Shown here: positions 16,035 to 64,000 of the stretch, one piece after another
Layout: each line of letters begins with the position of its first letter
How positions within the stretch are numbered: the stretch's first letter is position 1
From: Pseudomonadota bacterium
GTDB taxonomy: Bacteria; Pseudomonadota; Gammaproteobacteria; Steroidobacterales; JBCBZW01
Assembly: GCA_039193195.1 (NCBI GenBank)
Contig: JBCCWS010000010.1
Span: forward strand, 62,001-126,000
DNA: 64,000 nt
Direction: 5' to 3'
The notes under the pieces: model-generated
What the model was told of the DNA's origin: nothing
What the model saw: only the letters and a program-made list of their open reading frames with translations
Database searches by the model: none
Position numbers and translations under genes: made by a program

Positions 16035-16106
16035 CGCTTTCCCACCCCTGGAGTTCGCGAGCATCGACCATCAAAGCGGTCGCGGCTCTACTGCATTGAA
16101 CCATTT

Positions 16107-41349: not shown

Positions 41350-42660
41350 TCAGCGCGGCGTAGCTTCGCCCGCCGGCTCGTATACTCGCACGTAGTCGAC
41401 GACGAGCTGCTGCGGGAATACCGTCTCGTCGATCGGCCCACCGGCCCTACCCCACGCCCCGCCTACGGCGAGGTTCAAGATCAGGTGGAAGGGTTGATCG
41501 TAGGGCCAAGAGCGCCAACCATCGTGCTCGTTGACGTAGGAGAAGTAGTGGGTGTCATCGACGTAAGCATCGATGCGCTCGGGTGTCCACTCCAGGGCGT
41601 AGATGCGAAAGCGATCGTCCACCTGATCGAGCATAATGCGGCCCTTGCGCTGCTCCCACTTGGCCCAATAGTAGGCCTCGTTGTGGACCGTGCCGTGTAC
41701 ATGCCCCATCTGGTAGCCCACGTGCTCCATAATGTCGATCTCTCCGGAGTTCGGCCACGCATCACACGCATCGTTGCCCTGCCACTCGCCGGCGCTGCAC
41801 CGAGTTGCGTAGCGAAAGGGGTCACTAGGCAGCATCCATATGGCCGGCCAAGTGCCCTGCCCTTGCGGCAGCTTTGCGCGGACTTCAATGCGACCGTACA
41901 GCACATCACCCTTGTCTTTCGAGTGGATGCGCGCAGAGGTGTACTGGCCGTTTCCGTAACTCTCGCGGTGCGCCTCGATGATCAGCTGACCGTTCGCCAC
42001 GCGCAGATTGCGCGCTCGGGCCGTGTACACCTGATCTTCATCGTTGACCTTGCGCGCCGGCCACAGATCGGCGGTCCAGCGGGTGTGGTCGACGTGGCCG
42101 CCGTCGAACTCATCGCGCCAGGCGAGCTTCCATCCAGTAGGCCCCGCGGCCTGGCGAACGGACAGAGCGCTCAACACAGGCTCGCCCTGGCGGGCCACGA
42201 AGTGCGCATCGAGGCGCTCATCGCTAACCGACACTCCCGGCACCGTCACTGTGAGAGCTGACTGAGCCTTGCCATCGCGCCAACCCATCACGTTAATGCC
42301 CTCGATCACCCGCACCTGCTCGAGGTAGGCATCGAAGGTTCTTCTCCCCGCCGGTGCAGCCAACGGTTCGGCGAAGTAGAAGGTCACATCGTAGGTGCCC
42401 GATGCCAGGGGGTGGGACACGCGGACATCACCCACTCGATAGCCCGCGTAGAGCGCCGGATCCTGGCTGCCTTTGACCCGCTCGAGGGTCGCTGGCGTGC
42501 CGCCAGTTACATCGCTCTCGGAGACGAAGCGGGTGCCATCCAGCGCCTCGTAGGCGGCCCCGTTGACGTTTACTGCCCACACTGCAGGTGGCGGCGCAGC
42601 ATCGAGCGCGGTGGCAAGTAAACAGACTACCGCAGCGCTGACGACGATTGCTTTCCTCAC
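41350..42660 (-). CDS. Secreted GH16 beta-1,3-glucanase with N-terminal malectin-like domain
   Basis: 436 aa from GTG 42660 (GGGAG upstream; the frame runs further but loses sense). Signal peptide (IVVSAAVVCLLATALDAA), a malectin/CBM-like domain (~25-160; VWAVNVNGAAYEALDG, GTYDVTFYFAEP), then GH16. The catalytic signature GEIDIMEHVG is intact, with nucleophile Glu307, Asp309 and acid/base Glu312. This is the laminarinase-type motif with the extra Met between Ile and Glu. It would cut laminarin-like beta-glucan outside the cytoplasm. Divergent from the GH149-GH17 operon with a LacI-type operator between. Confidence 0.92.
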   Translation of the reverse strand: MRKAIVVSAAVVCLLATALDAAPPPAVWAVNVNGAAYEALDGTRFVSESDVTGGTPATLERVKGSQDPALYAGYRVGDVRVSHPLASGTYDVTFYFAEPLAAPAGRRTFDAYLEQVRVIEGINVMGWRDGKAQSALTVTVPGVSVSDERLDAHFVARQGEPVLSALSVRQAAGPTGWKLAWRDEFDGGHVDHTRWTADLWPARKVNDEDQVYTARARNLRVANGQLIIEAHRESYGNGQYTSARIHSKDKGDVLYGRIEVRAKLPQGQGTWPAIWMLPSDPFRYATRCSAGEWQGNDACDAWPNSGEIDIMEHVGYQMGHVHGTVHNEAYYWAKWEQRKGRIMLDQVDDRFRIYALEWTPERIDAYVDDTHYFSYVNEHDGWRSWPYDQPFHLILNLAVGGAWGRAGGPIDETVFPQQLVVDYVRVYEPAGEATPR

Positions 42661-42698
42661 GGTGACCGCTCCCTGCCTCGCAGATCCAGGATTCTGAA

Positions 42699-42712
42699 TG
42701 ACAGCGCTGTCA
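42699..42712. promoter_or_regulatory. LacI-type operator TGACAGCGCTGTCA
   Basis: Perfect 14-bp palindrome with a central CG, the classic LacI-family operator form. It lies in the divergent region, 39 bp before the GH16 start and 93 bp before the phosphorylase start. The only LacI protein in the window is encoded 3.5 kb away. Confidence 0.75.
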
Positions 42713-42804
42713 GACACAATTAAACTGTAGTCAGATTTTCGGTATCCGGCGCAGCGCGCGCCCGGGGCACCGGCCCAGAAGACAACGACAAGAGTACGTT
42801 GCTT

Positions 42805-45800
42805 ATGTCCGTCGAACACCACTACCCGCAGGCCGCGAGCGGCCGCCCTGTGCCCGCAGGGGCCTTCGTCGAGATCACCGGCGAACGCTACTACGCGATC
42901 ACCGACGTCGACCATATGGCACCCTTCTTCGTCAGCGTCATCTCCAGCACAGACCACTGGCTCTTCGTCTCATCGACGGGCGGTCTCACGGCGGGACGGG
43001 TGTCGCCCGACACGGCCCTGTTCCCCTACGTAACCGTTGACCGAATCCACGAAAGTCTGCCGCACACGGGACCGAAGACGATCATCCGAGTGCACCGCAG
43101 CGGCCAAACGCCTCAGCGCTGGGAACCCTTCAACCGAGAGCACGACGGACGCTACTCCACCAGTCGACAGCTGGCGAAGAGTTTAGTTGGGCACAAGCTG
43201 CGCTTCGAAGAAGTCAACCACGACCTCCAACTCGCCTTCCGCTATACCTGGGAGACGAGCGCCGAGTACGGTTTCGTGCGTCGCTGTGAGCTACTCAACC
43301 TAGGCGAGAGCACGGCCGAACTCGAGCTTCTCGACGGTCTCGCCAACCTGCTTCCCGCCGGGACGCCGAGGTTCACCCAGACCAACTCCAGCAATCTCGT
43401 CGATGCGTACAAGTGGACCGAACTGGATTCATCTTCAGGCCTGGCCCTGTTTACCCTGTACTCGGGAATCACCGACCGCGCCGCGCCGTGCGAGTCGCTC
43501 AAGGCCAACGTCGCCTACTGCCTCGGCGTCGACGCCCCCACGCGCCTAGTCTCCTCCAAGCAACTCGAGGCGTTTCGTCACGGCGAACCGCTACGTGAGG
43601 AAGACCGTGAGCGTGGAATCCGCGGCGCCTACTTCGTGCATCAACGCCTGAGCCTCGAGCCAGGGGCAAGTAACCCATGGTGCCTGATCACCGACCTAGA
43701 GCTGTCCCAAGGCGATGTGGTCAACCTAAGCCATGCTTTGCGCGCCCCCGGGGCACTCGCCGAGGCTGTAGATCAGAGCGTGGCTGTGGGCGGCGATGCG
43801 CTGGCTCGAATCATCGCCTCCTGCGACGGCTATCAGGGGACCGCAGAGGAGAACGTCGCCGCTCACCACTACGCAAACGTGATGTGGAATGTGCTGCGCG
43901 GCGGCTACTTCCCCTCCCAGTACGAGGTGCCCGCGGGTGACTTCGCGGCCACCGTGCGCGCCTTCAACCGCCCGGTCTACGAGCGCCATGAATCCCTCCT
44001 ACTCGCCCTCCCTGCGAACCTCAAGGTGTGGGAGCTGCGCGAACGCGTGGCGGCCGCTGGCGATCGCCAATTGGAGCGCCTTGCGCAGGAGTACCTACCG
44101 ATCGCCTTTGGCCGGCGCCACGGCGACCCCAGCCGACCGTGGAATCAGTTTTCCATCCGCACCCAAGACGCCGAGGGCCAGCCGGTCTACTGGTACGAGG
44201 GCAACTGGCGCGACGTCTTCCAGAACTGGGAAGCGCTCGCCTTCAGCATCCCCGAGTACGTCGAGCACATGGTCGCCAAGTTCGTCAACGCCTCGACCAT
44301 GGACGGCTACAACCCGTACCGGATCACCAAGGAGGGGATCGACTGGGAGGTCGAAGAGCCCGACGACCCCTGGAGCTACATCGGCTATTGGGGCGATCAT
44401 CAGATCATCTACCTGCAAAAACTCCTGGAGCTCTCGCGCCAGTTCCATCCTCAGCGCCTGCAGGCGCTTCTGCACGCGCCTCTGTTCGCCTACGCCAACG
44501 TGCCCTATCGCATTCGGCCGTTCCGCGCCCTGCTCGAGGACCCGAAGACCACGGTCGACTACGCCGATGAGCAAGCCCTGGCGATCGAGCAGCGCCTTGA
44601 AGACATGGGCGGCGATGCAAAGCTGATCCTCACTCGTGAGGGCGAGGTCCTACAGGTTACCCTGCTTGAGAAACTGCTCGTGCCGCTGCTGGCCAAGCTG
44701 GGCAACCTGGTGGTGGACGGCGGCATCTGGATGAACACGCAGCGTCCGGAGTGGAACGACGCCAACAATGCCCTGGTCGGCCAGGGACTGTCGATGGTCA
44801 CCCTGTACTACCTTCGCCGCTACGTGAGGTTTCTCCACGTTCTGCTCAGCACCGAGCAGGCGCCAGCAACGCTCAGCGCGCCCCTTGCGGATTGGCTGCG
44901 AGGGACCGCAGCGGCCCTGCACGCGTTCCGCGGCAGGCTGAGCGCGGGCACGGTCGCTAACGATCACGATCGCTACGCGCTGCTCGTTCAACTTGGTGAG
45001 GCAGCGAGCACCTACCGCGCGAAGGTCTACGCCGAGGGCGCAGGCGATGGTACGCCGCAGGCGCTGCCCATGAGCAAGATCACAGATCTTCTCGAGGACA
45101 CCCGAGTGGTAGTGGACCACAGCATTCAAAGCAACCGCCGCGATGACGGCCTCTACCACGCCTACAACCTGTTGGGGGTGGGCGAGGAGCGACTCGAGCT
45201 CGGTCACCTGTATCCGATGCTCGAGGGTCAGGTGGCGGCCCTCAGCGCGGGTAGCTTGGCACCAAAGGAGGCCGTCGCCGTACTGGACGGCCTATTTGCG
45301 AGCTCCATTTACCGCGTGGACCAACACAGCTTCATGCTGTACCCGGATCGCAAGCTAGCGAGCTTTCTGGACAAGAACCGCCTGACGCAAACGCAGGTAC
45401 AGGCCAACCCGCTGCTCTCGCGCCTGCTCGCCGAAGGCAACGACGATGTCCTCTACCGCGACGCCGACGGCGCCTACCGCTTCAACGCGAATTTCACCAA
45501 TGCCGATGATCTGCAGGCAGCGCTCAACGACCTGCCTGAGCCCTTCCAGGGCATCGTGGCCACGGCGCGAGACGGCGTTCTCACCTTGTTCGAGCAGGTG
45601 TTCGACCACCAGGCCTTCACCGGCAGGTCGGGCACCATGTTTGGCTTCGAAGGCCTCGGGTGCATCTATTGGCATATGGTGTCCAAGCTGCTACTCGCCG
45701 TGCAAGAGACGTTCTTCGCCGCTCTCGAGGCGGGAACCGATGAGCTCACCTGCCATCGCCTTGGCGAACACTACTACCAAGTGCGTGCAGGCATCGGCTT

Positions 45801-46284
45801 CAACAAGTCCCCCGCAGAGTTCGGCGCATTCCCCATGGATGCCTACTCGCACACGCCAGGCCACGCCGGCGCACGCCAACCGGGAATGACTGGGCAAGTC
45901 AAAGAAGAGGTGCTAACGCGCTTTGGCGAACTCGGCGTTCGGGTGCGCGACGGGCGCGTCAGCTTCCGCCCACAGCTGCTGCGTGGCCAGGAGTTTCTCG
46001 CCGCCCCTGCCGCCCTTCGCTACCTGGCCCTCGACGGCACGTGGCACGAGCTCGCGCTGTCGCCGCACAGCCTGGGCTTCACATGGTGTCAGGTGCCCGT
46101 GCGCTACACGCTAGTCGAGGTAGAGGATGCTGCAGGCATCACCGTGCACTACACGGACGGCACGGATCACTCGCAAGCCGAACTCACCCTGACCAGCGCG
46201 GATAGCGAATCTCTGTTCCGCCGCGAGGGTCATGTACGCGAAGTCATCGTACGCCTCAGCACCGCACTTTTGTTCAAACCCTAA
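42805..46284 (+). CDS. GH149-type beta-1,3-glucan phosphorylase
   Basis: 1159 aa from ATG 42805 (TTG two codons upstream is the alternative), no signal peptide. The length and layout match GH149/GH161 disaccharide/oligoglucan phosphorylases related to GH94: an N-terminal beta-sandwich (~1-300), then an (alpha/alpha)6 barrel with YWYEGNWRDVFQNWEA (candidate general acid Asp470), MDGYNPYRITKEGIDWE and DPWSYIGYWGDHQIIYL, and a C-terminal beta-domain. It would release glucose-1-phosphate from beta-1,3-gluco-oligosaccharides in the cytoplasm. The neighbouring GH17 and GH16 genes support the substrate; GH149 over GH161 is a judgement from memory of the families. Confidence 0.83.
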   Translation: MSVEHHYPQAASGRPVPAGAFVEITGERYYAITDVDHMAPFFVSVISSTDHWLFVSSTGGLTAGRVSPDTALFPYVTVDRIHESLPHTGPKTIIRVHRSGQTPQRWEPFNREHDGRYSTSRQLAKSLVGHKLRFEEVNHDLQLAFRYTWETSAEYGFVRRCELLNLGESTAELELLDGLANLLPAGTPRFTQTNSSNLVDAYKWTELDSSSGLALFTLYSGITDRAAPCESLKANVAYCLGVDAPTRLVSSKQLEAFRHGEPLREEDRERGIRGAYFVHQRLSLEPGASNPWCLITDLELSQGDVVNLSHALRAPGALAEAVDQSVAVGGDALARIIASCDGYQGTAEENVAAHHYANVMWNVLRGGYFPSQYEVPAGDFAATVRAFNRPVYERHESLLLALPANLKVWELRERVAAAGDRQLERLAQEYLPIAFGRRHGDPSRPWNQFSIRTQDAEGQPVYWYEGNWRDVFQNWEALAFSIPEYVEHMVAKFVNASTMDGYNPYRITKEGIDWEVEEPDDPWSYIGYWGDHQIIYLQKLLELSRQFHPQRLQALLHAPLFAYANVPYRIRPFRALLEDPKTTVDYADEQALAIEQRLEDMGGDAKLILTREGEVLQVTLLEKLLVPLLAKLGNLVVDGGIWMNTQRPEWNDANNALVGQGLSMVTLYYLRRYVRFLHVLLSTEQAPATLSAPLADWLRGTAAALHAFRGRLSAGTVANDHDRYALLVQLGEAASTYRAKVYAEGAGDGTPQALPMSKITDLLEDTRVVVDHSIQSNRRDDGLYHAYNLLGVGEERLELGHLYPMLEGQVAALSAGSLAPKEAVAVLDGLFASSIYRVDQHSFMLYPDRKLASFLDKNRLTQTQVQANPLLSRLLAEGNDDVLYRDADGAYRFNANFTNADDLQAALNDLPEPFQGIVATARDGVLTLFEQVFDHQAFTGRSGTMFGFEGLGCIYWHMVSKLLLAVQETFFAALEAGTDELTCHRLGEHYYQVRAGIGFNKSPAEFGAFPMDAYSHTPGHAGARQPGMTGQVKEEVLTRFGELGVRVRDGRVSFRPQLLRGQEFLAAPAALRYLALDGTWHELALSPHSLGFTWCQVPVRYTLVEVEDAAGITVHYTDGTDHSQAELTLTSADSESLFRREGHVREVIVRLSTALLFKP

Positions 46285-46302: not shown

Positions 46303-47199
46303 ATGTCGATGTCGCCCTACCAACGCAAGCTCTCCCTCGCCGGGGTCGATATCCGCAACCGCAGCGTAGAAGACCTACGCCTCTTAGTGCGCGAGCTTCT
46401 CGAACGTGGCCTCCACGGCATCTCCTTCAGCCCCTACATCGAGGGCCAAGACCCCAAGGTGGTCAAGGTGAGCGAGGGCCAGATCCGCGAACGCCTCGCT
46501 GTGATCCAACCCTTCGTGCGCTGGATCCGCACCTTCTCGTGCAGCGACGGCAACGAGCTGATCCCGGCCATCGCAAAGGGTGAAGGGCTCAGTACCATGG
46601 TCGGCGTCTGGCTCGGCAACGATCACGAAAAGAACGAGCAGGAACTGGCCACGGGCATCGAGCTGGCCAAGGCGGGCCTAGTCGACGTGCTGGGCGTAGG
46701 CAACGAAGTGCTTCTGCGCGGTGACCTCACCGAAGATCACTTGCTCGAGTACCTCCATCGCGCACAGGCCGCCGTGCCTAGTGAGGTGCCGGTGGGCTAC
46801 GTCGACGCGTACTTCGAATTCGAAGTGCACCCGCGCATCACCGAAGCCTGCGACGTGATCCTCGCCAACTGCTACCCGTTCTGGGAGAGCTGCCCGGCCG
46901 AGTTCGCCTGCCTATACATGAAGGACATGTACCGCCGTGCACAGCGCGTCGCGCCGGGCAAGCGGGTAATCGTGAGCGAGACCGGCTGGCCAAACATCGG
47001 CACGCCCGTGGGCGGCGCCGTGCCGTCCTTCGAACACGCCATTAAGTACTTCCTCGACACCTACCAATGGGCTGAGGAAGACGCCGTGGAGGTGTTCTGG
47101 TTCTCTTCCTTCGACGAGACCTGGAAGGTCGCGGCCGAGGGCGATGTGGGCGCCTACTGGGGCCTGTGGGATCAACACGGGACGCCGAAGTATGTCTGA
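46303..47199 (+). CDS. Cytoplasmic GH17 beta-1,3-glucan-active enzyme, copy 1
   Basis: 298 aa, no signal peptide, AGGAGG before the ATG, 18 bp after the phosphorylase gene. GH17 TIM barrel with acid/base Glu135 in VGNEVLLRG and nucleophile Glu226 in VSETGWPNIG, plus FWFSSFDETWKV near the end. It could be an exo- or endo-beta-1,3-glucanase or a glucanosyltransferase feeding the phosphorylase. Its last 8 bases overlap the next GH17 gene, so the two are co-translated. Confidence 0.9.
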   Translation: MSMSPYQRKLSLAGVDIRNRSVEDLRLLVRELLERGLHGISFSPYIEGQDPKVVKVSEGQIRERLAVIQPFVRWIRTFSCSDGNELIPAIAKGEGLSTMVGVWLGNDHEKNEQELATGIELAKAGLVDVLGVGNEVLLRGDLTEDHLLEYLHRAQAAVPSEVPVGYVDAYFEFEVHPRITEACDVILANCYPFWESCPAEFACLYMKDMYRRAQRVAPGKRVIVSETGWPNIGTPVGGAVPSFEHAIKYFLDTYQWAEEDAVEVFWFSSFDETWKVAAEGDVGAYWGLWDQHGTPKYV

Positions 47200-48148
47200 C
47201 ATCCTCGCCCATCCGTTCATCGCCCGTTCCCTACCGACCTACGGGCGCGCCATCTGCTACTCCGGCTATCGCGAAGGCCAGCATCCAGGACACGGCTTGT
47301 ACCCATCGTACGATGAGATCCGTGAGGACTTACACATCCTAGCGCCCCACTGGCAGTACCTGCGCCTGTACGACTGCAGCCGCCACGCGCAGACTGTGCT
47401 CGAGGTGATCGAACAGGAAGATCTGCCCTTGCGAGTCATGCTAGGCGTCGACCTAGCGGCCGAGGTAAGCAATCCCAACTGTCCCTGGGGCGCCGACTTC
47501 AGCGAAGAGACCCTGCGGGAAAATCGCGCCTCCAACGAGTCCCGCGTTATCCGCGCCATCGCCCTAGCCAGCGCACACCCGCACGCGGTGATGGCTATGT
47601 CGATAGGCAACGAGGCGAGCGTCGATTGGACCGATCATCTCGTGCCCGTCGAGCGCCTGGTGTACTACGCGCGGCAGATGCGCGCAGGCATTCCACAGCC
47701 GGTGACCTTCTGCGAGAACTACGTGCCCTGGACACAGAAGCTACAACCGCTGGCCGAGACCCTCGACGTTATCGCGATCCACACCTACCCGGTATGGGAG
47801 TACCGCTCCCTGGACCAGGCGCTCGCATACACGCAGGAAAACTACCGCTCCGTGGCCGAGCACTATCCAGATAAGTCGGTGATCATCACCGAGGCGGGCT
47901 GGACCACGGCGGCCAATGGTCGGGGCATCGAGCCCCACAACGCGTCCGAGGAACTGCAGGCAGGCTACTACGAGCAGTTGCTCAACTGGACCGATCGCGA
48001 GCAAATCCTCACCTTCATCTTCGAGGCCTTTGACGAGCCCTGGAAGGGCTCGGCGGATCCGCTCGAACCAGAGAAGCACTGGGGCTTGTACAGGGTGGAC
48101 CGGACGCCGAAGCTGGCGATGCTCGCCCACCCGGCGACGGCCGGCTGA
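47192..48148 (+). CDS. Cytoplasmic GH17 beta-1,3-glucan-active enzyme, copy 2
   Basis: 318 aa from ATG 47192, inside the end of the first GH17 gene. GH17 signatures: RAICYSGYREGQHPG at the first strand, acid/base Glu in MSIGNEASVDW and nucleophile Glu in VIITEAGWTT, then TFIFEAFDEPWKG. The copies are clearly diverged rather than a recent duplication, so they probably differ in specificity (for instance linkage or chain length). No signal peptide. Third gene of the phosphorylase operon. Confidence 0.9.
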   Translation: MSDILAHPFIARSLPTYGRAICYSGYREGQHPGHGLYPSYDEIREDLHILAPHWQYLRLYDCSRHAQTVLEVIEQEDLPLRVMLGVDLAAEVSNPNCPWGADFSEETLRENRASNESRVIRAIALASAHPHAVMAMSIGNEASVDWTDHLVPVERLVYYARQMRAGIPQPVTFCENYVPWTQKLQPLAETLDVIAIHTYPVWEYRSLDQALAYTQENYRSVAEHYPDKSVIITEAGWTTAANGRGIEPHNASEELQAGYYEQLLNWTDREQILTFIFEAFDEPWKGSADPLEPEKHWGLYRVDRTPKLAMLAHPATAG

Positions 48149-54490: not shown

Positions 54491-54628
54491 GGCGTAGGCG
54501 CTCCGAACGCAGAAATATCGATGGGGATATTTCAGCCGATGGAGCGGCTGCAAGCCGCCTAAGCAAGTGAGATGGGGCGAGCGAAAGTGTGAGACACGTC
54601 GAATAAGCGCCGGTAAGGAGCGCGATAC

Positions 54629-56449
54629 TCAGCGCACGAAGCGAATGCTGTCCAGATAGATGGTGACGGGCGAAGTGCGGCCTACGAGTGTGACGACGAA
54701 GCCTGTCTTCAAGCTGCTGAGGTCCTTGCCCTTCAACCTAATCTCGTAGCGCTTCCATGCATCTGTCAGCACGATGTCACCGGATTTGGAGATGCTTGAG
54801 TCCGGATGTTTGTTATCCGATTCGAGTAAGCCGACACCGAAGCTCACCTTTTCCCCGCCATAGGCGCCTCGCGCCCAGAACTCCAACCTGTTAGCCCCGG
54901 TGAGGTCGATGCCCCCTTCCTGATCGCCCCAGTTGTTCGGGGGATGTTGCCAGGCGATGCCCGCCCAGCCGAACTTGCCCTCGTAGCGAATACGGATAGC
55001 TGCCTTGCCTTCGCGTGGGCTACTGGCGTCGTCGCCATCGAGCGCCAGATGCTCGACGCCGCCCATCCACCCCGAGGGCACCCAAGCCATTTGCTCTAAG
55101 CTGTCCTCGTAAACGGGGAAGGGCAGCGGTGTGCGGCGCTCGCCCTTCACCAGGAGGGGCACGTTTGCCGTGCCCGCCTTTCCGTTGCCATCGTAGACAT
55201 AAGCGAACAGTCGGTAGGGTCCCGGTGCCTCGGGCATGCGCACCTGCGCACCCGTTACGCCGGCTTCGAGGATGGCGTCCTCGATCGGCAGGGGCGTCGC
55301 GCGGTAGTCGCCGCCGGTGGCATAGTCACCGGTCTCGGCCATTAGCACCCAGCGTGCGCGCAAGTCACCGCCTTCCGGATCGCGCATCCGTGCGGCGACA
55401 TCGATGACCGCACCGGGATCGACCGCCGTCGCCCCCGACACGGACAACCCATCGATGGCAGGTGCCCGATCGCCCGGCGCCTCACCAGACCATAGGGCGG
55501 TCATCGTATCCACGGCAGCGGTGCCGGCGCCATCTGGCAAGAACATACCGAACCAGGTGTCCGTGCCCTCCATCTTGTGGCCCCAGAGGAACGCGTAGGA
55601 CCCCAGTGATACGCCCGGTGTGCCGAGTATCACCTGCTGGTAGGTGCCGCGATAGAAGGCGGCTTTTTCCTCGCTAGTCTGCTCGTAGGGCGCCCCCCAA
55701 GCGGTCGCGCCCGTCTCCCACGGCCCCAGGGGACCGAACTCCGTAAGCACGAAGGGTTTGCTGGCCCTCTTCTCCTGCAGACGCTCCGGCACGACCCGGG
55801 CGCCGCCATAGGCGTTTATGCCGTGTATGTCGATGGCCGGCGAGCGTTCGTGGATGTACTCGATCCGCTCGCCGTGAACGAAAGTCGTGACCGTCATCGT
55901 GGGGTGGTTGGGGTCCAAGGACTTCACCATTGCGGCGGCCTCATTGATGGCTTTCCACACAGCAGGGTCCGTCGCCTCATCAAAGCCCTCGGCCTCGTTA
56001 CCCACGCCCCAGAGCAGCAAGGCCGGATGATCGCGATAGCGAAGCACCATCTCCCGCACGCGTTCGAGCTGCTTCTCGAGCTGGCTCGCGTTGCTGTAGT
56101 CGAAGCCATGCCGTGCATGACCGAGCCAGATGCCCACCGTGACCGTCAGCCCCAAGGCGTGGGCCTGATCGAGCACCTCGTCGACCTCACCGCCCCAGGT
56201 GCGTACGGAATTGGCACCGGCGGCGGCCAAGGCGTCGAGGGAGGCGTCTCCACCGGCGCCGCGAATGAAGTAAGGCTCGCCCCCGCGGTAGAGCTGCCAG
56301 CCCTCTGCGGTCTCTCGCAGCTCGACAGGCACGGGGCCCTTCGCCGGCTCCGTGCCGGCGCTGCCAGCCACGGCGAATACCGCGCTTGCGACAGCGGCAA
56401 CCGTTGCGGCCAAGCGACGCGGTCCGTTAGCAGCATTCGGGTGCCGCAC
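54629..56449 (-). CDS. Exported clan GH-A glycosidase (GH2/GH5-like) with C-terminal carbohydrate-binding domain
   Basis: 606 aa from GTG 56449, just beyond the lipoprotein stop (GTG 56461 also possible). Signal peptide around RRLAATVAAVASAVFAVAG. TIM barrel (~40-320) with acid/base Glu152 in WGVGNEAEG and nucleophile Glu237 in VLTEFGPLG, the GNE/TEF pair of clan GH-A; the opening resembles GH2 catalytic domains. Residues ~345-440 look Ig-like and ~450-606 like a CBM/CIA30 beta-sandwich (GGIDLTGANRLEFWARG). Substrate unknown; the neighbours suggest a beta-glucan. In one operon with the genes to its right. Confidence 0.85.
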   Translation of the reverse strand: MRHPNAANGPRRLAATVAAVASAVFAVAGSAGTEPAKGPVPVELRETAEGWQLYRGGEPYFIRGAGGDASLDALAAAGANSVRTWGGEVDEVLDQAHALGLTVTVGIWLGHARHGFDYSNASQLEKQLERVREMVLRYRDHPALLLWGVGNEAEGFDEATDPAVWKAINEAAAMVKSLDPNHPTMTVTTFVHGERIEYIHERSPAIDIHGINAYGGARVVPERLQEKRASKPFVLTEFGPLGPWETGATAWGAPYEQTSEEKAAFYRGTYQQVILGTPGVSLGSYAFLWGHKMEGTDTWFGMFLPDGAGTAAVDTMTALWSGEAPGDRAPAIDGLSVSGATAVDPGAVIDVAARMRDPEGGDLRARWVLMAETGDYATGGDYRATPLPIEDAILEAGVTGAQVRMPEAPGPYRLFAYVYDGNGKAGTANVPLLVKGERRTPLPFPVYEDSLEQMAWVPSGWMGGVEHLALDGDDASSPREGKAAIRIRYEGKFGWAGIAWQHPPNNWGDQEGGIDLTGANRLEFWARGAYGGEKVSFGVGLLESDNKHPDSSISKSGDIVLTDAWKRYEIRLKGKDLSSLKTGFVVTLVGRTSPVTIYLDSIRFVR

Positions 56450-56453
56450 GGGC

Positions 56454-57185
56454 CTAACCACCGATGACGCTGACCACCCCATCATCGAAATTGGGTGGGT
56501 TCGCCGGTTGGTAAGTGAAGCCCCATTCGAGCAGCTGAGAGATCACCAGCAGCGGGTCGCCCGGGATCAGGCGATCGAAGCCGGTGGCATCCGTGCGATA
56601 CAAGGCATCCGCGGCCAGCTCGTTGGTGCCGACGGGGAATGGCACCGGCTCACCGTCCGGGCTGAGGCCTGGGCAGCAAGTGAATACGGTGACTTGGCCA
56701 AAGAAGTTATCGAGCACAGAGCGGTAGGCCTTGAGCGCTTGCTCTTGAATCAAGGAATCGCCGTTGATGTCCCACAGCTCATGCAAGGCAAGCGCCGTAA
56801 AGTACTGGTTCTCGCCGGACTGGCGATTGGCCAAGGCCGTCGCCCAGAAATAAAAGCGGGATTTCGCGCCCTCAGGGCCCAAGGGGATCGCGTTGAACAG
56901 CTCGAACTTGTTCGCCGCATCCGGGTTGTTGGCGTCGAACTCGACGATCGGCGTGCCGATAAAGGGGTTCTCCGGGTCGTCCAGCACGCATCGCTCAGAG
57001 CCGATACCTACGTTGATGCAGGCGAGGTTCAACAGCGTATCGCTCGGCAGCACGATGGCGTTTATCACCATGCCGCCGTCCGTGCCGTCGTTGCAGGCCG
57101 TAAGGCCGAGACCGCCCACCACAGCGAGGGAGGCAATCGTCATCCATCGCGCAAAGCTGCTGGCCTTAAGCGTCTTGTTGTTCAT
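56454..57185 (-). CDS. Lipoprotein of unknown function
   Basis: 243 aa from ATG 57185 (GTG two codons upstream also possible). Lipobox LTACND. Helical repeats in the middle (SRFYFWATALANRQSGENQYFTALALHEL) recall TPR or all-alpha sugar-binding lipoproteins. Four cysteines outside the lipobox (ACINVG, RCVLDD, TCCPG) may pair. It sits 33 bp behind the barrel-fusion gene and 4 bp before the glycosidase start, so it is an operon member and possibly their partner at the outer membrane. Confidence 0.7.
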   Translation of the reverse strand: MNNKTLKASSFARWMTIASLAVVGGLGLTACNDGTDGGMVINAIVLPSDTLLNLACINVGIGSERCVLDDPENPFIGTPIVEFDANNPDAANKFELFNAIPLGPEGAKSRFYFWATALANRQSGENQYFTALALHELWDINGDSLIQEQALKAYRSVLDNFFGQVTVFTCCPGLSPDGEPVPFPVGTNELAADALYRTDATGFDRLIPGDPLLVISQLLEWGFTYQPANPPNFDDGVVSVIGG

Positions 57186-57218
57186 TCTCACAATCCTCGT
57201 GCTCTGCCTACGAGCCGA

Positions 57219-60200
57219 TCAGAAGCGATAGGTGAAGTAGAAAGTGGTCAGGAAGGCGTAGTCGTTCTCGCCGTCCAGGAACTCCTCCGGCAGGGAGTTC
57301 TCATCGGTAGTGCGGAAGATCGTGCGCACGCCGATACGCGTCGCGCGGATCTCATCGATGAGGTTACCAAAGGACATTCCGGTACCCAGCAAGAACGAGT
57401 AGTCGAATTCCACCTGCTCGGGATAGGTGAAGTTGAACTGGCGGAAGAAGTCTTCCGGCCCCCACGAGTCCTTCTTAAAGTAGCCGCGTACCAGATGGCG
57501 CCGGTTTATCACAGCCTTCCAGTATGCCTCGTAGAAATCACGGGTTCCTCCGGTTGGATCACCGGTAGACTGATCGAAGCCGCGGACCAGGGTCAGGATG
57601 TAATTCTGATTCGGGCTCGGGTTCCAGACCATGCGACTGGTGACACTCCACACATCCTCGGCGGGAAGCCCCTGACCGAAGGAGGCGTTGCTGCCGCCGT
57701 TGCCCAGATCCAAGAAGAACAGGTTGGCGTCCGTCGCCGTCGGGTACTCGGTGTAGTTGGCGCCGATGTTGAACGCAAACTTCGCATCCTCGCGCCACTC
57801 GTTGTCCCAGTCGTAGAACGGTGTGGCGCCGGTCGGATCCCAGGTGAAGAAGATCTCACCGGAGCGGGCCTCACGGTTGCCCAGCACGGCGAAGGCATCG
57901 TTGTCACGATCTCGCGGCAGGAGTCCCGGGTTCAGGATGCCGTCCGGCGTGATGACCGGATCGATGAACGGGTTCGCGTCCACCAGATTGTCGCGGTAGA
58001 GGAAGCGCGGGTAGATCATCAGGTTGCCGAAGCGAATGATCGTGCCCGCCTCGTACTCGCGGCGGTTACCCAGACCCGTGAGCGGCAGGCGGGTGGGGTC
58101 CAGCACGCCGAAGGTCGGCACGGGCCGGCCACCTTCCGACACCAGGCCCGCGTGGTGGGCGGAGAGATAGGTCTCGGCGCCAAACAGGCGGAAGCTAGTC
58201 TTCAGCTTGAAACCCAAGGTGTCTTCGAACTCGATTTGGTCCGTGACGATGTTGCCATCCTCATCGACCCGGTCGAACTGCTCATCGATACGCTCAGGCG
58301 CGGACAGCAGACCGCCCGCTTCCACCTTGATACCGCCGGGCAGTTGAGTGGAGGCGAAGATCGAGGTCGCTCGCGTCTGACGCTGCGTGGCCTGGGTGGC
58401 GTTAGCGCCCGTACCTAGGCGCGAGAAGTCCTCCGAGTGGATGATCGCCCAATCGATACCTCGGGTGGCGAACTCGTACTTGATCACCGCCTTCGGGTTG
58501 GCGCCCCAGAAGATCTCCGGGCCAGCCACGATCTTCAGGCCCTCGAGGGGGCCTTTGCCCGTGAACTCGATGCCCTCCGGCGCCTTGCCGTTGAACACAT
58601 CGATGCCGGGAATATCAGTCGCTTCCTGGATTAGACCAAAGAAGTCCCCTTCGTAGGCCCAGTGGAAACGCGGCGTGTGGTAGAAGGCTTCGAGATCGAA
58701 GTTCCTGCCCGTGTACTTGGCGTTGAAGTCGTAAATCTCCACGCGCTCACGATCTGACAAGACTACCTGTCGCTCCGTGAACTGATCGAGGGTCTGGTCG
58801 CGAATGACCAGGCCCGGATTCTCGTTCAGAGTAGGCACGCGAATCGTCAGCGGCAGGCCCCGTTGGCCGTACTCGAACTCCAGGGGCTGCTTATCCGCCA
58901 CGTCACCGAGCACGTTGAGGGAGAACTGACCCTCGACCTGCTCGCTCGGATTGAAGGCAAAGTCGACATTCAGCTGCTGGCCCGTGAGGAACTCCACCCC
59001 GTTTTCGCCGAGCTCGGTGATGTCCTGCTCCAGGGCACGCACGGCGAACTCACCGCGAATGTCACCCCCGGTGAACTTCAGCAGCCGCCGCTCCTCGTTC
59101 GCGCGCGACTTCAGGGCGCGCACCTCACCCTTCAGTTCGAGCACGTCGAGATCGACGTTGGCCACGCGCGAATTGATCTCGCCGACGTTCGCCGTGTAGG
59201 GGTCGATCTGGAAGATCTCAGCCAGCACGTCGTAGGCCATACGCGGGCGCGCCGTGTAGACGCCCTCGGAGTTCGGCAGGCCCAAGGCCATGATGCCGAA
59301 CCACTCCTCGTTCATATTGTTGAGGCCTTCGGCCCAGTCGAAGGGGTAGGCTTGATTGGACCAAGAGGCGTTGGTGTCGTGAATCTCCAGGTTCTCGATC
59401 TGCAGATACTTCCACCACTCATCGCGCCATTCGAAGACGAAGGCGCCGATGGAGTTGCCCTCCTCGCCCTTACCGTAGGCCTTGCGATACATCTCCGCCC
59501 ATTGATCCCGCAGTATCAGGGCCTGAGACAGCTGATCCTCTTCGAGACGACGAGCGTTGAAGGCGTCGCTACCAAACTCGAAGAACACCACCGGCAGGTC
59601 GAGCTTCGCTTCCACCTCGCTCCACAGGTTGGTGAAGCTCTTGCCGCGATAGACGTTGGAGCCGAGAAGGTCGAGGTCGGGGCACAGCTCTTGAATCAGG
59701 TCGATGTACTGAATGTCACCGTTGACGATCGTAAACGGGTGATTGGGGTCTATCGACTTACCCGCCTTCACCACCTCGTTCCACAGGGAGTACAGGAAGC
59801 GGGCTTTCGCCGTCTGTTGTTCTCCTGCGGGGAGGTTCTCGATCTCGAAACTGGACCATGACAAGCCGTAGTTGCTCTCGTTACCGAAAGCGAACATGAG
59901 CACGCCCGGCGTGTCCTTGTACTGCTGAACCCAGTTCTGCATGTCGCGCTTGAGCGTTTCGCGCGTGAGCGGATCAGAGTAGTCGGTGAAGGGAATCCAC
60001 TTGCCGCCGACGTTATAACCGTAGCGCCCCATCAGGGGGTTTACCACGGACATGATACCGTGCTCGCGGTAGATGTAGGTGATCCACTTCGGCGGGATCA
60101 TGGAGAAGGTGCGGATCGTGTTGATCCCCGCCCCCCTCATCAGGCCCATCTCGTAGTCGAGCACCTTGCGGATGGAGTCGTCTGGCTGGCCCCACAGGTT

Positions 60201-60419
60201 GTAGGTGTAGTTCTGGCCGCGCGGTGAGTAGCCCCAAACCACACCCTTGATGTAGTAGTCCGAGCCGTTGACCTTCAGCTTCCAGCCGTTCGCGTCCTTG
60301 TAGGTCTCGACCCGGTCAACCTGGGCGTTTGCCACGTGCACCGGTGCGCCGAGCGCCAGGAGCAGCGGCAACACCCATAGGGCGGTCCTCATGCGCCGCA
60401 GCAGGCGGATCGCGGTCAT
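57219..60419 (-). CDS. Glycosidase TIM barrel fused to an outer-membrane beta-barrel
   Basis: 1066 aa from ATG 60419 (AGGGAA 6 bases upstream; the longer frame is less likely). Signal peptide (WVLPLLLALGAPVHVANAQ). Residues ~35-420 are a GH2/clan GH-A type TIM barrel with GNE (Glu181 in FAFGNESNYG) and a nucleophile candidate Glu281 in VFFEFGSDAF. A helical link (~425-490; VGEINSRVANVDLDVLELKG) follows. From ~500 to the end the sequence is amphipathic strands with aromatic girdles, ending in TTFYFTYRF, a BAM-type terminal strand. It would hold a glycosidase permanently at the outer membrane, next to its own channel. Neither part is truncated. Confidence 0.82.
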   Translation of the reverse strand: MTAIRLLRRMRTALWVLPLLLALGAPVHVANAQVDRVETYKDANGWKLKVNGSDYYIKGVVWGYSPRGQNYTYNLWGQPDDSIRKVLDYEMGLMRGAGINTIRTFSMIPPKWITYIYREHGIMSVVNPLMGRYGYNVGGKWIPFTDYSDPLTRETLKRDMQNWVQQYKDTPGVLMFAFGNESNYGLSWSSFEIENLPAGEQQTAKARFLYSLWNEVVKAGKSIDPNHPFTIVNGDIQYIDLIQELCPDLDLLGSNVYRGKSFTNLWSEVEAKLDLPVVFFEFGSDAFNARRLEEDQLSQALILRDQWAEMYRKAYGKGEEGNSIGAFVFEWRDEWWKYLQIENLEIHDTNASWSNQAYPFDWAEGLNNMNEEWFGIMALGLPNSEGVYTARPRMAYDVLAEIFQIDPYTANVGEINSRVANVDLDVLELKGEVRALKSRANEERRLLKFTGGDIRGEFAVRALEQDITELGENGVEFLTGQQLNVDFAFNPSEQVEGQFSLNVLGDVADKQPLEFEYGQRGLPLTIRVPTLNENPGLVIRDQTLDQFTERQVVLSDRERVEIYDFNAKYTGRNFDLEAFYHTPRFHWAYEGDFFGLIQEATDIPGIDVFNGKAPEGIEFTGKGPLEGLKIVAGPEIFWGANPKAVIKYEFATRGIDWAIIHSEDFSRLGTGANATQATQRQTRATSIFASTQLPGGIKVEAGGLLSAPERIDEQFDRVDEDGNIVTDQIEFEDTLGFKLKTSFRLFGAETYLSAHHAGLVSEGGRPVPTFGVLDPTRLPLTGLGNRREYEAGTIIRFGNLMIYPRFLYRDNLVDANPFIDPVITPDGILNPGLLPRDRDNDAFAVLGNREARSGEIFFTWDPTGATPFYDWDNEWREDAKFAFNIGANYTEYPTATDANLFFLDLGNGGSNASFGQGLPAEDVWSVTSRMVWNPSPNQNYILTLVRGFDQSTGDPTGGTRDFYEAYWKAVINRRHLVRGYFKKDSWGPEDFFRQFNFTYPEQVEFDYSFLLGTGMSFGNLIDEIRATRIGVRTIFRTTDENSLPEEFLDGENDYAFLTTFYFTYRF

Positions 60420-60502: not shown

Positions 60503-63500
60503 TCATGGCACCAGCTTCACGCTGACGTTGTCGATCAGCACATCCGCCAGGCAGCCCTGATCCCCACTGCAAATCGCCACGAGCTGCAGCGTGATACCGC
60601 GGGCCGGATCATCCCCTACCGTTGCCGTGTAGCTGAAGTTGGTCCAGTCAGCAGGCGCTGTCTGAATGTCGTCGATGGTCTGGGGAAACACCCCGTCCCC
60701 AGACTGCTCGGTGAAGAACTCGACCACGAACTTGGGGCCAGCCCCAGCGAAGGTCGCCTTCATGTCGAGGGAGATGCTCACCGTGTCGCCGGCCATCACC
60801 GTGCCGACGGCGAGGAACTCCTGCTTGATCACCGGGTTCTGCCCAGGGCCTGCGATGAGATTGCCCGAGAAACTCCCCTCGCTCGCGTCCATATCCTCGA
60901 TACGCAGCTGACCACCGTTGTCGAAGAGCGTCCAGCCGTCGAGGGTGCCTGTCTCGAAGTTCCCGTTGAGCGTCAGCTCGTCGGGGTCTGCGTTGTCGTC
61001 AGTCGCTTCGCCCACGTCGATATCGTCGAAGTAGTACATCTGCTCGCCAACGTCAGCGCCGAGCGCACCGAAGTTGAAGAAGATGGAGATCTTCGAGTAG
61101 GTGGCAGCTGGATCGAACTGAGCCGTTCCCGGTACCTGGTTAGCAAAGTCAAATACCAGCGTTTCCCAATCATTGGCCACGGTGGTGGACGCCTCAGCCT
61201 CGACAGAGACGTTGCCATCTTCCGCATTCTCGATCTTCATTCGCACCGGAATACCCGCTGCCGGCGCGAAGACCCGCACCGTCATGGTGGTCCTGAGCAC
61301 ATTGAGCGGCAGGCGGGGCACCGAGTTGCCCTCCAGGACGCCTACCGTAGTGCCCGCGGCCTCGAGCGCCGTGTCCGTGCGCACCGACAGGGCGACCATG
61401 TTCATGCCGCCGGCCGGATCGTTGGTGATCACCGAGGCACTGCCGTTGAAGTCGGCTAGCGTGTAGTTCACCTCAGGATCATCGAAGGTGATCGCGGCGA
61501 AGACCTCTGCCGGCGGCGGCACATCGTCCGCACCACAGCCTGCGGAGGTCGGCGCGATGTCATCGAACTGGAAGGTCCAGCTGTCAGGATCGCCCGCCGC
61601 GTCGCCCGCGACGCCGTTGTCAAAGATCAGGGTGAGCCCGGTGATGTTGCCACCCACATCGGCGAAGTCGAAGCACAGCTCCTCCCACGTGCCGCTGCCG
61701 CTGTAGAGCGCGGTCCGCTCCATATTGAGCGGCTCTAGCTTCAGGGTCACCTCGACCTCGCGCTGGGCGCGCACTTTCATCAGGTACGAGTCTCCGCTAG
61801 CGAAGGAGAACGCGTCCCCGAGCAGGTATGTGCTGCCTGCGAAGGTCGCCCCGGCGAATTTCTGCATCTCGCCGACGAAGTCACTGGGGTTGATACCGCT
61901 CGCGTCCGGGTTGGAAATGACTGTGGCGACGCCACCCTCGAAGTCTGCGAAGTTCGCCTCGCCACTCTCGAAGTCGACGGGCTCGACCATCGGCAACGGC
62001 TCCGGATCGGGCGGCGGCTCGCCACACTCGTCGACCCGGGTAATCTCGTCGTAGAAGAAGGTCCAGCTGTTCGCATCGCCTCCCGCGTTGCCCGGCACAC
62101 CGTTGTCGAAGATGAAAGTGATCGCGTTCGGCCGAGGGCCTGCCGTGTCACCGGTGAAGTCGAAGCACAGTTCCTGCCAGGCGCTGCCGCCGGGGTGTAG
62201 GACCTCTCGCTCGCGATTGAGCGTCTCGAACTTGAACAGCACGGGCACCGGGCGCGCCGACCATACCTTCATGGTGAAGATCTCACCGTCCGAGAAGTCC
62301 ACAGAGCCGGCGCTCAGGGTGCTACCACCGAAGGGTTCGCCAGCAAACTTGCGCATCTGCGCCACCTGCGGCGTGGTGTTCAAGCCCGATGCATCCGGAT
62401 TACCCACAACTTCCGATACACCGCCACCGAAGCCTGCATCCGGACCAAAGTCGTAGCTATCGGGCGCATCTTCGAAGGTAATCGGGAACTGCGCTAGCGG
62501 GCAGGACTCGATCTGCTCGATCTCGTCGTAGTAAAAAGTCCAGTTTTCCGCGTCGCCGTCGGCGTCACCCAGCACGCCATTGTCGAAGATGAAAGTGATA
62601 GCGTTGCTGCGCGGACCGATCGTGGTGCCGCCAAAGTCAAAACACAGCTCCTCCCAGGTGCCGCCGCCAGGGTGGTTGACCGTGCGTTCCTGGTTGAGCG
62701 TCTCGAACTTGAACAGCACCGGGACCGGGCGCGCAGACCAAACCTTCATCCTGAAGGACTCGCCCGCGTCGAAGTCGACCGAGGCGCCTAGAGAAAGGGT
62801 GCTGCCTGCAAAGGTCTCACCGCCAAACTTCTGCATCCGCACCGTCTGCGCGGTTGTGTTCAGCCCGCTCTGATCAGGGTTCGGCACCACCAGGGATACG
62901 CCGCCGGCGAAGCCCGCCTCAGGACCGAAGTCGTAGCTGTCCGGTGCGGCCTCGAAGTCGATGGGGAACTCTGCCGGGGGACCGCAATTGTCGACCTGTT
63001 CGATGTCGTCGAAGAAGAACGTCCAGTCATCCGGGCTGCCCATGGCATCGCCTACGGTGCCAAGGTCGAAGATGAAGGTAATCGCGTTGGACGGAGCACC
63101 GCCGAGGGCTGTATTGGTGAAGTCGAAGCAGAGCTCCTCCCACATCCCGCTGCCACTGTGGTTGAGTGCGCGCTCCTGGTCCAAGCCTTCGAACTTGAAC
63201 AGCACCGGAACCGAGCGCGATGCCCAGACCTTCATCCGGAATGCTTCCCCACGGGTGAAGTCCACGTCCTCACCCAGGCTGAGCGTGCTGCCGGCGAAGT
63301 CCTCGCCTTCGAACTTCTGCATTTGCGCTACCTGGGCACTGCCGTTCAATCCGCCGGCCACGGGGTTGGGAATCACCGTGGATACACCGCCTTCGAAGCC
63401 GGCTTCCGGCCCGAAGTCGTAGGTGTCCGCCGCGGCCTCGAAGTCCACCGGGAACAGGCCCGGCTCACCCATCTGCGTCGCGATGGCGATATCGTCCGCG

Positions 63501-64000
63501 AACCAGGTTTGCAGGCCAGCGTCCGTACCCTCGATACCGAAGTTGAAGAACAGCACGACCTTGTCGTACGTGGCGTTCGAATCGAAGGCCGCGGTATTCG
63601 CCACGGGGTTCAGGAAGTCGAAGGTCAGCGTCTCCCACCCATCGGCGAGAGTCGTGGTCGCCTCCGTCTCCACCGAGACCATCTCATTGGTCGAATCCTC
63701 GATCTTCAGACGAATCTGCGCACCCGCCTGCGGACCGTTCACGCGAACGGTCATCTGCGGTGCCACCGGATCGAGGTCGATCACGCCAACGGACTCGTTG
63801 TCACCCGTGAAGATCACGGTGCCAGCGAACGACTGAGCCATGTTGCTACGGTTCACGCGCAGCACCATGCTCGAGGCGTCTACCGGGTCCACTACGAGCG
63901 CAGAATCCTCCGCGCCCTCGAAGCCGCGCAGGGCGTAGGCCAGATCGGGATTATCGAAGGTGATGGTCTCAAAGACCCCTCGATCAGCGACGTCATCCTC
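60503..64000 (-). CDS. Giant exported beta-sandwich-repeat (carbohydrate-binding-like) protein, 5' end outside window
   Basis: The frame is open to the window edge (1165 residues seen). Six or seven tandem domains of ~150-170 residues: two of one type (ITFDNPDLAYALRGFEG, ITFDDPEVNYTLADFNG), four close copies of another (FEAAPDSYDFGPEAGFAGG, MKVWSARPVPVLFKFE, GTWEELCFDF, WTFFYDEIEQ), and a C-terminal CBM4/9-like domain (LNGNFETGTLDGWTLFDNGG). Each ends in an acidic DDI/DEI strand typical of CBM jelly rolls. It probably binds glycan for the glycosidases downstream. An N-terminal catalytic domain may lie outside the window. Confidence 0.85.
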   Translation of the reverse strand, partial: EDDVADRGVFETITFDNPDLAYALRGFEGAEDSALVVDPVDASSMVLRVNRSNMAQSFAGTVIFTGDNESVGVIDLDPVAPQMTVRVNGPQAGAQIRLKIEDSTNEMVSVETEATTTLADGWETLTFDFLNPVANTAAFDSNATYDKVVLFFNFGIEGTDAGLQTWFADDIAIATQMGEPGLFPVDFEAAADTYDFGPEAGFEGGVSTVIPNPVAGGLNGSAQVAQMQKFEGEDFAGSTLSLGEDVDFTRGEAFRMKVWASRSVPVLFKFEGLDQERALNHSGSGMWEELCFDFTNTALGGAPSNAITFIFDLGTVGDAMGSPDDWTFFFDDIEQVDNCGPPAEFPIDFEAAPDSYDFGPEAGFAGGVSLVVPNPDQSGLNTTAQTVRMQKFGGETFAGSTLSLGASVDFDAGESFRMKVWSARPVPVLFKFETLNQERTVNHPGGGTWEELCFDFGGTTIGPRSNAITFIFDNGVLGDADGDAENWTFYYDEIEQIESCPLAQFPITFEDAPDSYDFGPDAGFGGGVSEVVGNPDASGLNTTPQVAQMRKFAGEPFGGSTLSAGSVDFSDGEIFTMKVWSARPVPVLFKFETLNREREVLHPGGSAWQELCFDFTGDTAGPRPNAITFIFDNGVPGNAGGDANSWTFFYDEITRVDECGEPPPDPEPLPMVEPVDFESGEANFADFEGGVATVISNPDASGINPSDFVGEMQKFAGATFAGSTYLLGDAFSFASGDSYLMKVRAQREVEVTLKLEPLNMERTALYSGSGTWEELCFDFADVGGNITGLTLIFDNGVAGDAAGDPDSWTFQFDDIAPTSAGCGADDVPPPAEVFAAITFDDPEVNYTLADFNGSASVITNDPAGGMNMVALSVRTDTALEAAGTTVGVLEGNSVPRLPLNVLRTTMTVRVFAPAAGIPVRMKIENAEDGNVSVEAEASTTVANDWETLVFDFANQVPGTAQFDPAATYSKISIFFNFGALGADVGEQMYYFDDIDVGEATDDNADPDELTLNGNFETGTLDGWTLFDNGGQLRIEDMDASEGSFSGNLIAGPGQNPVIKQEFLAVGTVMAGDTVSISLDMKATFAGAGPKFVVEFFTEQSGDGVFPQTIDDIQTAPADWTNFSYTATVGDDPARGITLQLVAICSGDQGCLADVLIDNVSVKLVP

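Follow-up and report, generated by a model that had tools for sequence, protein, structure and literature searches.

What might a bacterium gain by making a glycosidase and an outer-membrane beta-barrel as one polypeptide? The question is raised by gene P0001 in a stretch of 64,000 nucleotides from a Pseudomonadota bacterium (assembly GCA_039193195.1, contig JBCCWS010000010.1, positions 62,001 to 126,000), which we call the window. An initial annotation, made from the sequence alone, had read the gene product as a signal peptide, a glycoside hydrolase (GH) domain of clan GH-A with Glu181 and Glu281, a helical link and a C-terminal barrel, and sequence, alignment and AlphaFold2 confirm this order of parts. 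From these data and the gene context we infer activity, transport and topology, and we lean towards the view that the fusion protein serves the uptake of laminarin-type beta-1,3-glucan, as an outer-membrane channel that carries its own endo-beta-1,3-glucanase on the periplasmic side. The gene is divided as follows.

57219..60419, minus strand: fusion gene (P0001), GH158-like enzyme and predicted outer-membrane beta-barrel, 1066 amino acids (aa) plus stop
60324..60419, minus strand: signal peptide, residues 1-32, read from the sequence, without visible lipobox
59214..60323, minus strand: GH158-like TIM-barrel domain, residues 33-402 (Foldseek, VIA-align, phmmer)
59877..59879, minus strand: codon of Glu181, predicted acid/base (GNE)
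59577..59579, minus strand: codon of Glu281, predicted nucleophile (FEFG)
59082..59213, minus strand: helical linker, residues 403-446, poorly conserved
57222..59081, minus strand: C-terminal outer-membrane beta-barrel, residues 447-1066, about 28 strands (predicted structures)
58578..58679, minus strand: loop of 34 residues, 581-614, presumably facing outwards, which may constrict the pore or bind sugar

Gene structure

The frame runs from an ATG at 60419 to a TGA at 57221-57219 and has 0 internal stops. On the plus strand stops break the interval 57219-60419, and the uninterrupted frame of 1066 codons that had been noticed is that of the minus strand. The signal peptide (about residues 1-32) reads as type I with cleavage after HVANA. 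A crude lipobox pattern flagged 0 of the family N-termini printed, some of these printed stretches missing the true signal peptide. At the other end of the protein, the final barrel strand ends in YFTYRF.

In the genome scan at least 589 stretches matched, of which at least 587 encode a relative; the 80 best loci were taken further. Full-length members, defined by a single frame that covers over 900 query residues, are present at 72 of these 80 loci, which together with the window makes 73 sequences. Three loci are partial at contig ends (L025, L036, L053) and two encode a true GH-only version (L039, L047); L041, L059 and L083 fall in neither list despite long matches, probably because the filter for open reading frames (ORFs) retained longer frames on the opposite strand. 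An assembly error joining two genes is excluded, since the same two-part frame occurs in the 72 fetched loci and in a genome of the same genus, which holds the fusion at 97% identity.

Searches of the window protein against Pfam and NCBIfam gave nothing above cut-off. Its ThiC-associated and cyclophilin matches were at chance level and were rejected. The statement that no characterised family has this layout agrees with the databases, in that no Pfam or NCBIfam model covers the whole arrangement.

Enzyme domain

The structure model predicts a GH158-like fold of clan GH-A. With the whole-chain model, Foldseek placed GH158 enzymes first (9p26, E 5.8e-15; BuGH158, 6pal, E 1.4e-13), with barrels at lower rank (AlgE, 4.3e-9; LptD, 7.0e-9). 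VIA-align of the whole chain gave GH157 at Z 28.2 (root-mean-square deviation, rmsd, 3.1 A over 312 residues) and GH158 9p26 at Z 27.8 (rmsd 5.3 A over 304 residues). By sequence, the best match of the fusion protein in the PDB was GH158(Pro) (phmmer, 9oro, E 5.4e-7), and a profile of the 73 members run against the PDB with hmmsearch matched GH-A type enzymes, GH158(Pro) and BuGH158 being the best (E 3.9e-7).

The motifs GNE and FEFG occupy residues 179-181 and 280-283. N180, E181 and E281 are invariant in 73/73 aligned sequences, and GNE and the nucleophile glutamate align with those of BuGH158 and GH158(Pro), Glu281 falling on the EWG/EFG motif of GH158. For the Pfam family GH2_C the window fusion scores 12.4 bits against a cut-off of 21; four of six scanned relatives score 21.0 to 26.8 bits and two have no match. 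Other GH2 domains gave no Pfam match in the window protein or these six relatives. The enzyme of the fusion is a putative endo-beta-1,3-glucanase.

Predicted barrel

AlphaFold2 was run on the whole chain with the 73-row family alignment; the barrel was then folded alone, because VIA-align of the whole chain listed GH-type enzymes only. The whole-chain model has a mean pLDDT (predicted local distance difference test) of 85.4 and a pTM (predicted template modelling score) of 0.73. In mature residues 1-370 strands and helices alternate, helices occupy 380-410, and about 28-30 strand segments follow from 415 to 1033. Folded alone, the barrel reached a pLDDT of 86.9 and a pTM of 0.81. The whole-chain prediction proposed in the initial annotation modelled both halves well, and its opposite outcome, a C-terminal half with no closed barrel, is not supported by the predictions. 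The C-terminal half is thus predicted to be a large barrel of the outer-membrane type.

Fold comparison of the barrel alone gave AlgE as the best Foldseek match (E 4.6e-9), and in VIA-align OccK2 (Z 16.4, rmsd 3.6 A, 249 residues), AlgE (Z 15.7, rmsd 6.1 A, 295 residues) and the usher FimD (Z 14.2, rmsd 4.8 A, 358 residues, nearly the full barrel length). These scores lie close together and appear generic for large barrels. The barrel profile matched no PDB sequence up to E 5, and the TonB plug and barrel families PF07715, PF13715 and PF00593 had no match in the window protein or 6 relatives.

Membrane topology

DSSP delimits 30 strand segments, and taking two short ones as a hairpin within a loop leaves 28 strands. 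At this count 8/8 tight turns of 2-3 residues lie on the side of the N-terminus, and 10 of the 13 loops of at least 10 residues lie on the opposite side; the parity holds with 30 strands as well, but would be lost if the short segment 493-498 in the barrel model were not counted. In outer-membrane barrels the short turns face the periplasm. Since the tight turns share the side of the N-terminus, the GH domain most likely stands at the periplasmic exit, probably on the inside rather than at the outer mouth. The initial annotation had fixed the enzyme at the mouth of its own channel; the joining of an enzyme to an outer-membrane-type barrel stands, and the choice of the outer mouth is probably to be reversed.

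Three outer loops are well conserved between the two main alignment groups (581-614, 48% identity; 636-642, 71%; 987-997, 58%), the other outer loops being variable. Such conservation is unusual at the surface and suggests a selective entrance.

Two metagenome-assembled genomes (MAGs) of Woeseiaceae carry the GH-only version, in which the gene ends at the linker just before strand 1 and the signal peptide is kept:

7992-9335 of L039: GH-only Woeseiaceae version, 447 aa
up to 4602 of L047: GH-only Woeseiaceae version

A ratio of nonsynonymous to synonymous substitutions of 0.12 between the two genes indicates purifying selection. The barrel profile matched 0/2 of these genomes, which as MAGs may be incomplete, and 16/16 of the others searched in the same way; L039 and L047 probably share one barrel loss. 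An enzyme that is still useful after loss of the barrel fits a periplasmic location.

The opposite arrangement would be an autotransporter-like display, in which the linker runs inside the barrel, the GH domain lies outside, the barrel is mainly an anchor and the glucan is cut at the cell surface. We regard this as unlikely. The succession of a soluble domain at the N-terminus, a helix of some 20 residues immediately ahead of strand 1 and a barrel at the C-terminus does recall type V secretion; however, the barrel is more than twice the size of the classical 12-stranded autotransporter domain, and the autotransporter barrel PF03797 has no match in the window protein or 6 relatives. Conservation of several outer loops, but not of the linker helix, fits a mere anchor poorly, and the natural version without a barrel remains under selection.

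Distribution and joint evolution of the two halves

The phyletic count that had been proposed found relatives in many phyla, and the layout is not limited to the source organism. By record titles, fusion genes occur in Gammaproteobacteria, Mariprofundus, Geobacteraceae, Cloacimonadota, Delongbacteria and Myxococcota, and further in Eisenbacteria, Calditrichia, Ignavibacteria, Balneolales and Bacteroidota. Members are mostly MAGs; isolates include Geomonas, Thiomicrorhabdus, Pyxidicoccus, Myxococcus and Flavobacterium. The fusion is sparse within its classes, with 4/369 gammaproteobacterial genomes (in one of them, G264, only the part from residue 432 onwards is present, at the end of a contig) and 13/295 genomes of Bacteroidia, the class of L058. 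In six myxobacterial members (L037, L040, L042, L043, L045, L048) the GH domain is preceded by a proline-rich stretch, and none was seen in the remaining N-termini that were printed.

The two main alignment groups share 48% identity over the GH domain, against 31% over the barrel and 15% over the linker. When the 73 sequences are compared in pairs, the distances measured for the two halves correlate at r = 0.91 (within the two groups, r is 0.81 and 0.69), so the halves have travelled together. In 16/16 genomes, chosen as fusion holders, the barrel profile matched exactly one place, in a frame of at least 1017 aa, and the frames that hold its 13 matches among the 295 Bacteroidia genomes measure 1041-1093 aa. 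No genome searched with this profile has the barrel outside the fusion.

Gene neighbourhood

The genes around the fusion in the window are the following.

56454..57191, minus strand: lipoprotein-like partner, 245 aa, 28 bp downstream of the fusion; no Pfam family
54629..56485, minus strand: second secreted clan GH-A enzyme with a C-terminal domain, related to the GH domain of the fusion (E 2.3e-9; GH2_C E 1.5e-8)
60503..64000, minus strand: C-terminal part of a giant lipoprotein-like protein with carbohydrate-binding-like modules (CBM_4_9), running past the window
42799..46284, plus strand: GH149 beta-1,3-oligoglucan phosphorylase (phmmer to 6hq6, E 0)
46303..47199, plus strand: GH17-like enzyme without obvious signal peptide (PF00332, E 8.8e-10)
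47144..48148, plus strand: GH17-like enzyme (PF00332, E 2.7e-6; 27.7 bits against the Pfam cut-off of 28.2)
41350..42957, minus strand: GH16 enzyme with malectin domain
38163..39245, plus strand: LacI-type sugar regulator
13698-16064: TonB receptor

The giant lipoprotein-like protein is about 2775 aa long overall (L084 1-4830), with several similar modules, CBM_35_2 upstream and LLAGC near its start. A secreted subtilase (S8) with ten C-terminal YLWSD repeats is encoded at 52577-54553 on the minus strand. The window and the upstream stretch also encode GH16, GH3 and MFS_2 (major facilitator superfamily), and the wider neighbourhood of the fusion comprises GH16, GH17, GH149, GH30, GH3, MFS_2 and sugar regulators. 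The neighbourhood is catabolic and has the gene set of a laminarin (beta-1,3-glucan) utilisation locus.

Context was counted in flanks of up to 8 kb where the contig allows and, for the window, over all 64 kb. ORFs outside the recurrent clusters entered the neighbour scans from a length of 350 aa (Bacteroidota-type loci) or 400 aa (others); the scans covered 41 of the 45 listed ORFs per set, four having been dropped by hand and the second set being drawn without the window and the myxobacterial loci; many neighbours are named through clustering with a scanned representative. GH16 is present at 28/30 Bacteroidota-type, 20/34 gamma-type and 5/9 myxobacterial-type loci, and GH149 at 20/30, 14/34 and 0/9. 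In all 30 Bacteroidota-type loci the fusion is followed directly by a member of a single cluster of binding-type lipoproteins, and at 29 of the 34 gamma-type loci the next gene on the same strand falls into lipoprotein clusters without a Pfam family (205-446 aa). Several representatives of this gamma-type lipoprotein show an LDDPxNPF-like motif, and the protein could be a cap or plug. At L058 a fusion of MFS_2 and GH17 is encoded near the enzyme-barrel gene.

Across whole genomes, GH149 accompanies the fusion in 13/13 Bacteroidia against 8/282 without it (Fisher p 1.3e-17) and in 4/4 Gammaproteobacteria against 1/365 (p 6.6e-9), p-values that overstate the strength of the association, as related genomes are not independent and both query genomes (G000, G378) are included. 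The fusion counts exclude weak GH-only matches (G184, G360 and a second place in G264).

These neighbours also bear on a role in export, in which the enzyme would trim a glucan made by the cell as the barrel exports it, as in synthase-dependent exopolysaccharide systems, which pair a hydrolase with a porin of the outer membrane. AlgE, the best Foldseek match of the barrel, is an alginate exporter, yet by VIA-align the OprD kind of uptake porin is at least as good a match. The neighbours are catabolic, the fusion co-occurs with a beta-1,3-glucan phosphorylase, and there is no polysaccharide synthase among the scanned cluster representatives or the families listed, a survey in which singletons may be unseen. 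We consider export very improbable, and the earlier suggestion that polymers are trimmed on their way out finds no support in this neighbourhood.

The SusC/SusD position in Bacteroidia loci

At 12 of the 13 fusion-positive Bacteroidia loci the fusion, the binding protein and GH16 follow one another in this order (names by clustering), as a rule followed by GH149, GH17, GH30 and MFS-GH17. Eight Bacteroidia loci have GH149 and lack the fusion. One of them, L105, has a comparable gene set, and there a SusC-like receptor with a TonB plug domain and a SusD stand beside a binding protein of this kind and a GH16. Frames clustering with this SusC and SusD are absent from 12 of the 13 fusion-positive stretches of 19-20 kb, where scans of the unassigned frames covered L111 and L120. 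The fusion seems to stand in for the SusC/SusD pair at many Bacteroidia loci. At the other seven fusion-negative GH149 loci the stretch within 20 kb contains no fusion and no relative of SusC/SusD from L105, and the large frames of five of these seven, which were scanned, contain no TonB receptor. Among the families listed for the 41 further Bacteroidota-type neighbours, SusD matched 2 and a TonB-receptor barrel was found in L051.

Proposed mechanism

In the mechanism that we favour, surface lipoproteins with carbohydrate-binding modules and a surface GH16 would capture and shorten the glucan, and the chains would then pass into a selective pore with several conserved outer loops. The periplasmic GH domain, held by the linker, would cut the emerging chains into short oligosaccharides, MFS_2 (fused to GH17 in L058) would import these to the cytoplasm, and the cytoplasmic GH149 would phosphorolyse them. 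Cutting at the exit would trap the products and, as a speculation, could make import one-way. The bolder form of this proposal is a TonB-independent channel of about 28 strands with a tethered periplasmic endo-glucanase, in which hydrolysis instead of TonB energy makes uptake one-way and which would have displaced SusC/SusD at many laminarin loci and reached many phyla; this we put forward tentatively, as a possibility well short of even chances.

Several observations weigh against an uptake channel with its own glucanase. Concerning the enzyme, the VIA-align score of GH158 is tied with those of GH157 and GH2 glucuronidases, and the sequence support for membership in GH158 is weak (E about 1e-7). 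Concerning the structure, closure of the barrel, strand number and placement of the GH domain are model-based, and the lower pTM of the whole chain compared to the barrel alone makes the relative orientation of the halves uncertain. Three loops on the periplasmic side are long (15-20 residues), and one of these, 861-880, is well conserved (61%). The less hydrophobic, presumed pore face is more conserved in 18/30 strand segments and less so in 12/30, which suggests no more than a tendency. Concerning the loci, GH149 is absent within the flanks of 10/30 Bacteroidota-type, 20/34 gamma-type and 9/9 myxobacterial-type loci, partly through contig ends. L122, the sole fusion-positive locus with frames clustering with the L105 SusC and SusD, appears to have both systems, its SusC-like frame being cut by the end of the stretch and without a Pfam match of its own, and its SusD relative being identified by clustering. 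The seven GH149 loci with neither system imply that a local outer-membrane component is not obligatory. In a further study, laminarin loci of Woeseiaceae contain GH158, GH149 and GH17, and seven of them a single SusC gene (PMC12175321).

Some of these points would also fit a beta-glucanase that is simply anchored in the membrane by a plugged, non-conducting barrel, with uptake left to porins or TonB receptors elsewhere in the genome. The TonB receptor of the window, the case of L122 together with the seven loci that have neither system nearby, and the modest conservation of the pore face agree with this; against it stand the several outer loops conserved between phyla and the location of the fusion in the SusC/SusD place beside the binding protein at the 12 Bacteroidia loci. 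We rate such an anchor as quite improbable and retain the uptake channel with a periplasmic glucanase as our preferred reading.

SusC and SusD are treated as the signature of laminarin-type glucan uptake by Bacteroidota. A conserved fusion of enzyme and channel in laminarin loci would, if true, be a second, overlooked uptake route and a testable case of hydrolysis-coupled import across the outer membrane. It would also change how laminarin loci are recognised; one study terms groups of carbohydrate-active enzyme (CAZyme) genes without susCD 'CAZyme clusters' and not polysaccharide utilisation loci (PULs) (PMC10108472). Some genes annotated as plain glycosidases would then really encode transporters.

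Comparison with known systems

Our searches of the open PMC literature brought up no account of a GH-A enzyme fused to an outer-membrane barrel, nor of a GH158 enzyme with a porin. OprD/Occ porins, AlgE and usher pores match the barrel in fold and not in sequence, and the predicted barrel of the fusion is larger than the 18-stranded porins. GluM of Corallococcus is related to Oar, a TonB-receptor-like protein. GluM, described as a beta-1,6-glucanase and outer-membrane beta-barrel (PMC10971235), likewise combines glucanase and barrel, and the fusion family is also present in Corallococcus (L040-L043); GluM differs in that it is reported to act on beta-1,6-glucan in fungal predation, and it is compared with the fusion by description only. 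Fusions of outer-membrane pore proteins to other domains are rare according to a survey (PMC4827864), and in an export pathway described elsewhere the barrel and the hydrolases are separate proteins (PMC11340318).

BuGH158 and GH158(Pro) share with the fusion the TIM-barrel fold, the GNE and E(F/W)G motifs and the setting in a beta-1,3-glucan locus, whereas BuGH158 has a C-terminal Ig-like domain in the place of the barrel (PMC7157763) and sequence similarity is weak. The laminarin PULs with SusC/SusD, such as the 1,3GUL of Bacteroides and the locus of Formosa, have in common with the fusion loci GH16, GH17, GH30, GH149 or GH3, MFS and a binding protein beside an outer-membrane component. This component differs, as a relative of the L105 pair was not found in 12 of the 13 fusion-positive Bacteroidia stretches and the fusion is without a TonB plug match.

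Members of the fusion family seem to have been annotated elsewhere as plain glycosidases, the papers on related loci in Muricauda, in Woeseiaceae and in expressed laminarin PULs naming enzymes and no barrel. Laminarin PULs of Muricauda list a 'GH2 beta-glycosidase' in a gene set of LuxR regulator, GH2, GH16, GH149 or GH3, GH17, GH30, MFS and GH17 (PMC13188888), the same set as in the fusion loci. Based on this gene set and the weak GH2_C matches of the relatives, the Muricauda 'GH2' is probably the same protein as the fusion. It is described as an enzyme only, the terms 'outer membrane' and 'porin' occurring 0 times in the text of PMC13188888. In expressed laminarin PULs an unclassified GH0 is encoded beside GH149 and, separately, one variant 1 PUL is without susCD (PMC10108472); that the GH0 belongs to the fusion family is attractive by position only, and the fact that such PULs normally have susCD speaks against it. 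A parallel is offered by FbGH17B of Formosa, an MFS-GH17 fusion in which a transporter is likewise joined to a beta-1,3-glucan hydrolase in laminarin loci (PMC6246565). There the transporter is one of the inner membrane, whereas the fusion described here would join a barrel of the outer membrane to an enzyme of another family.

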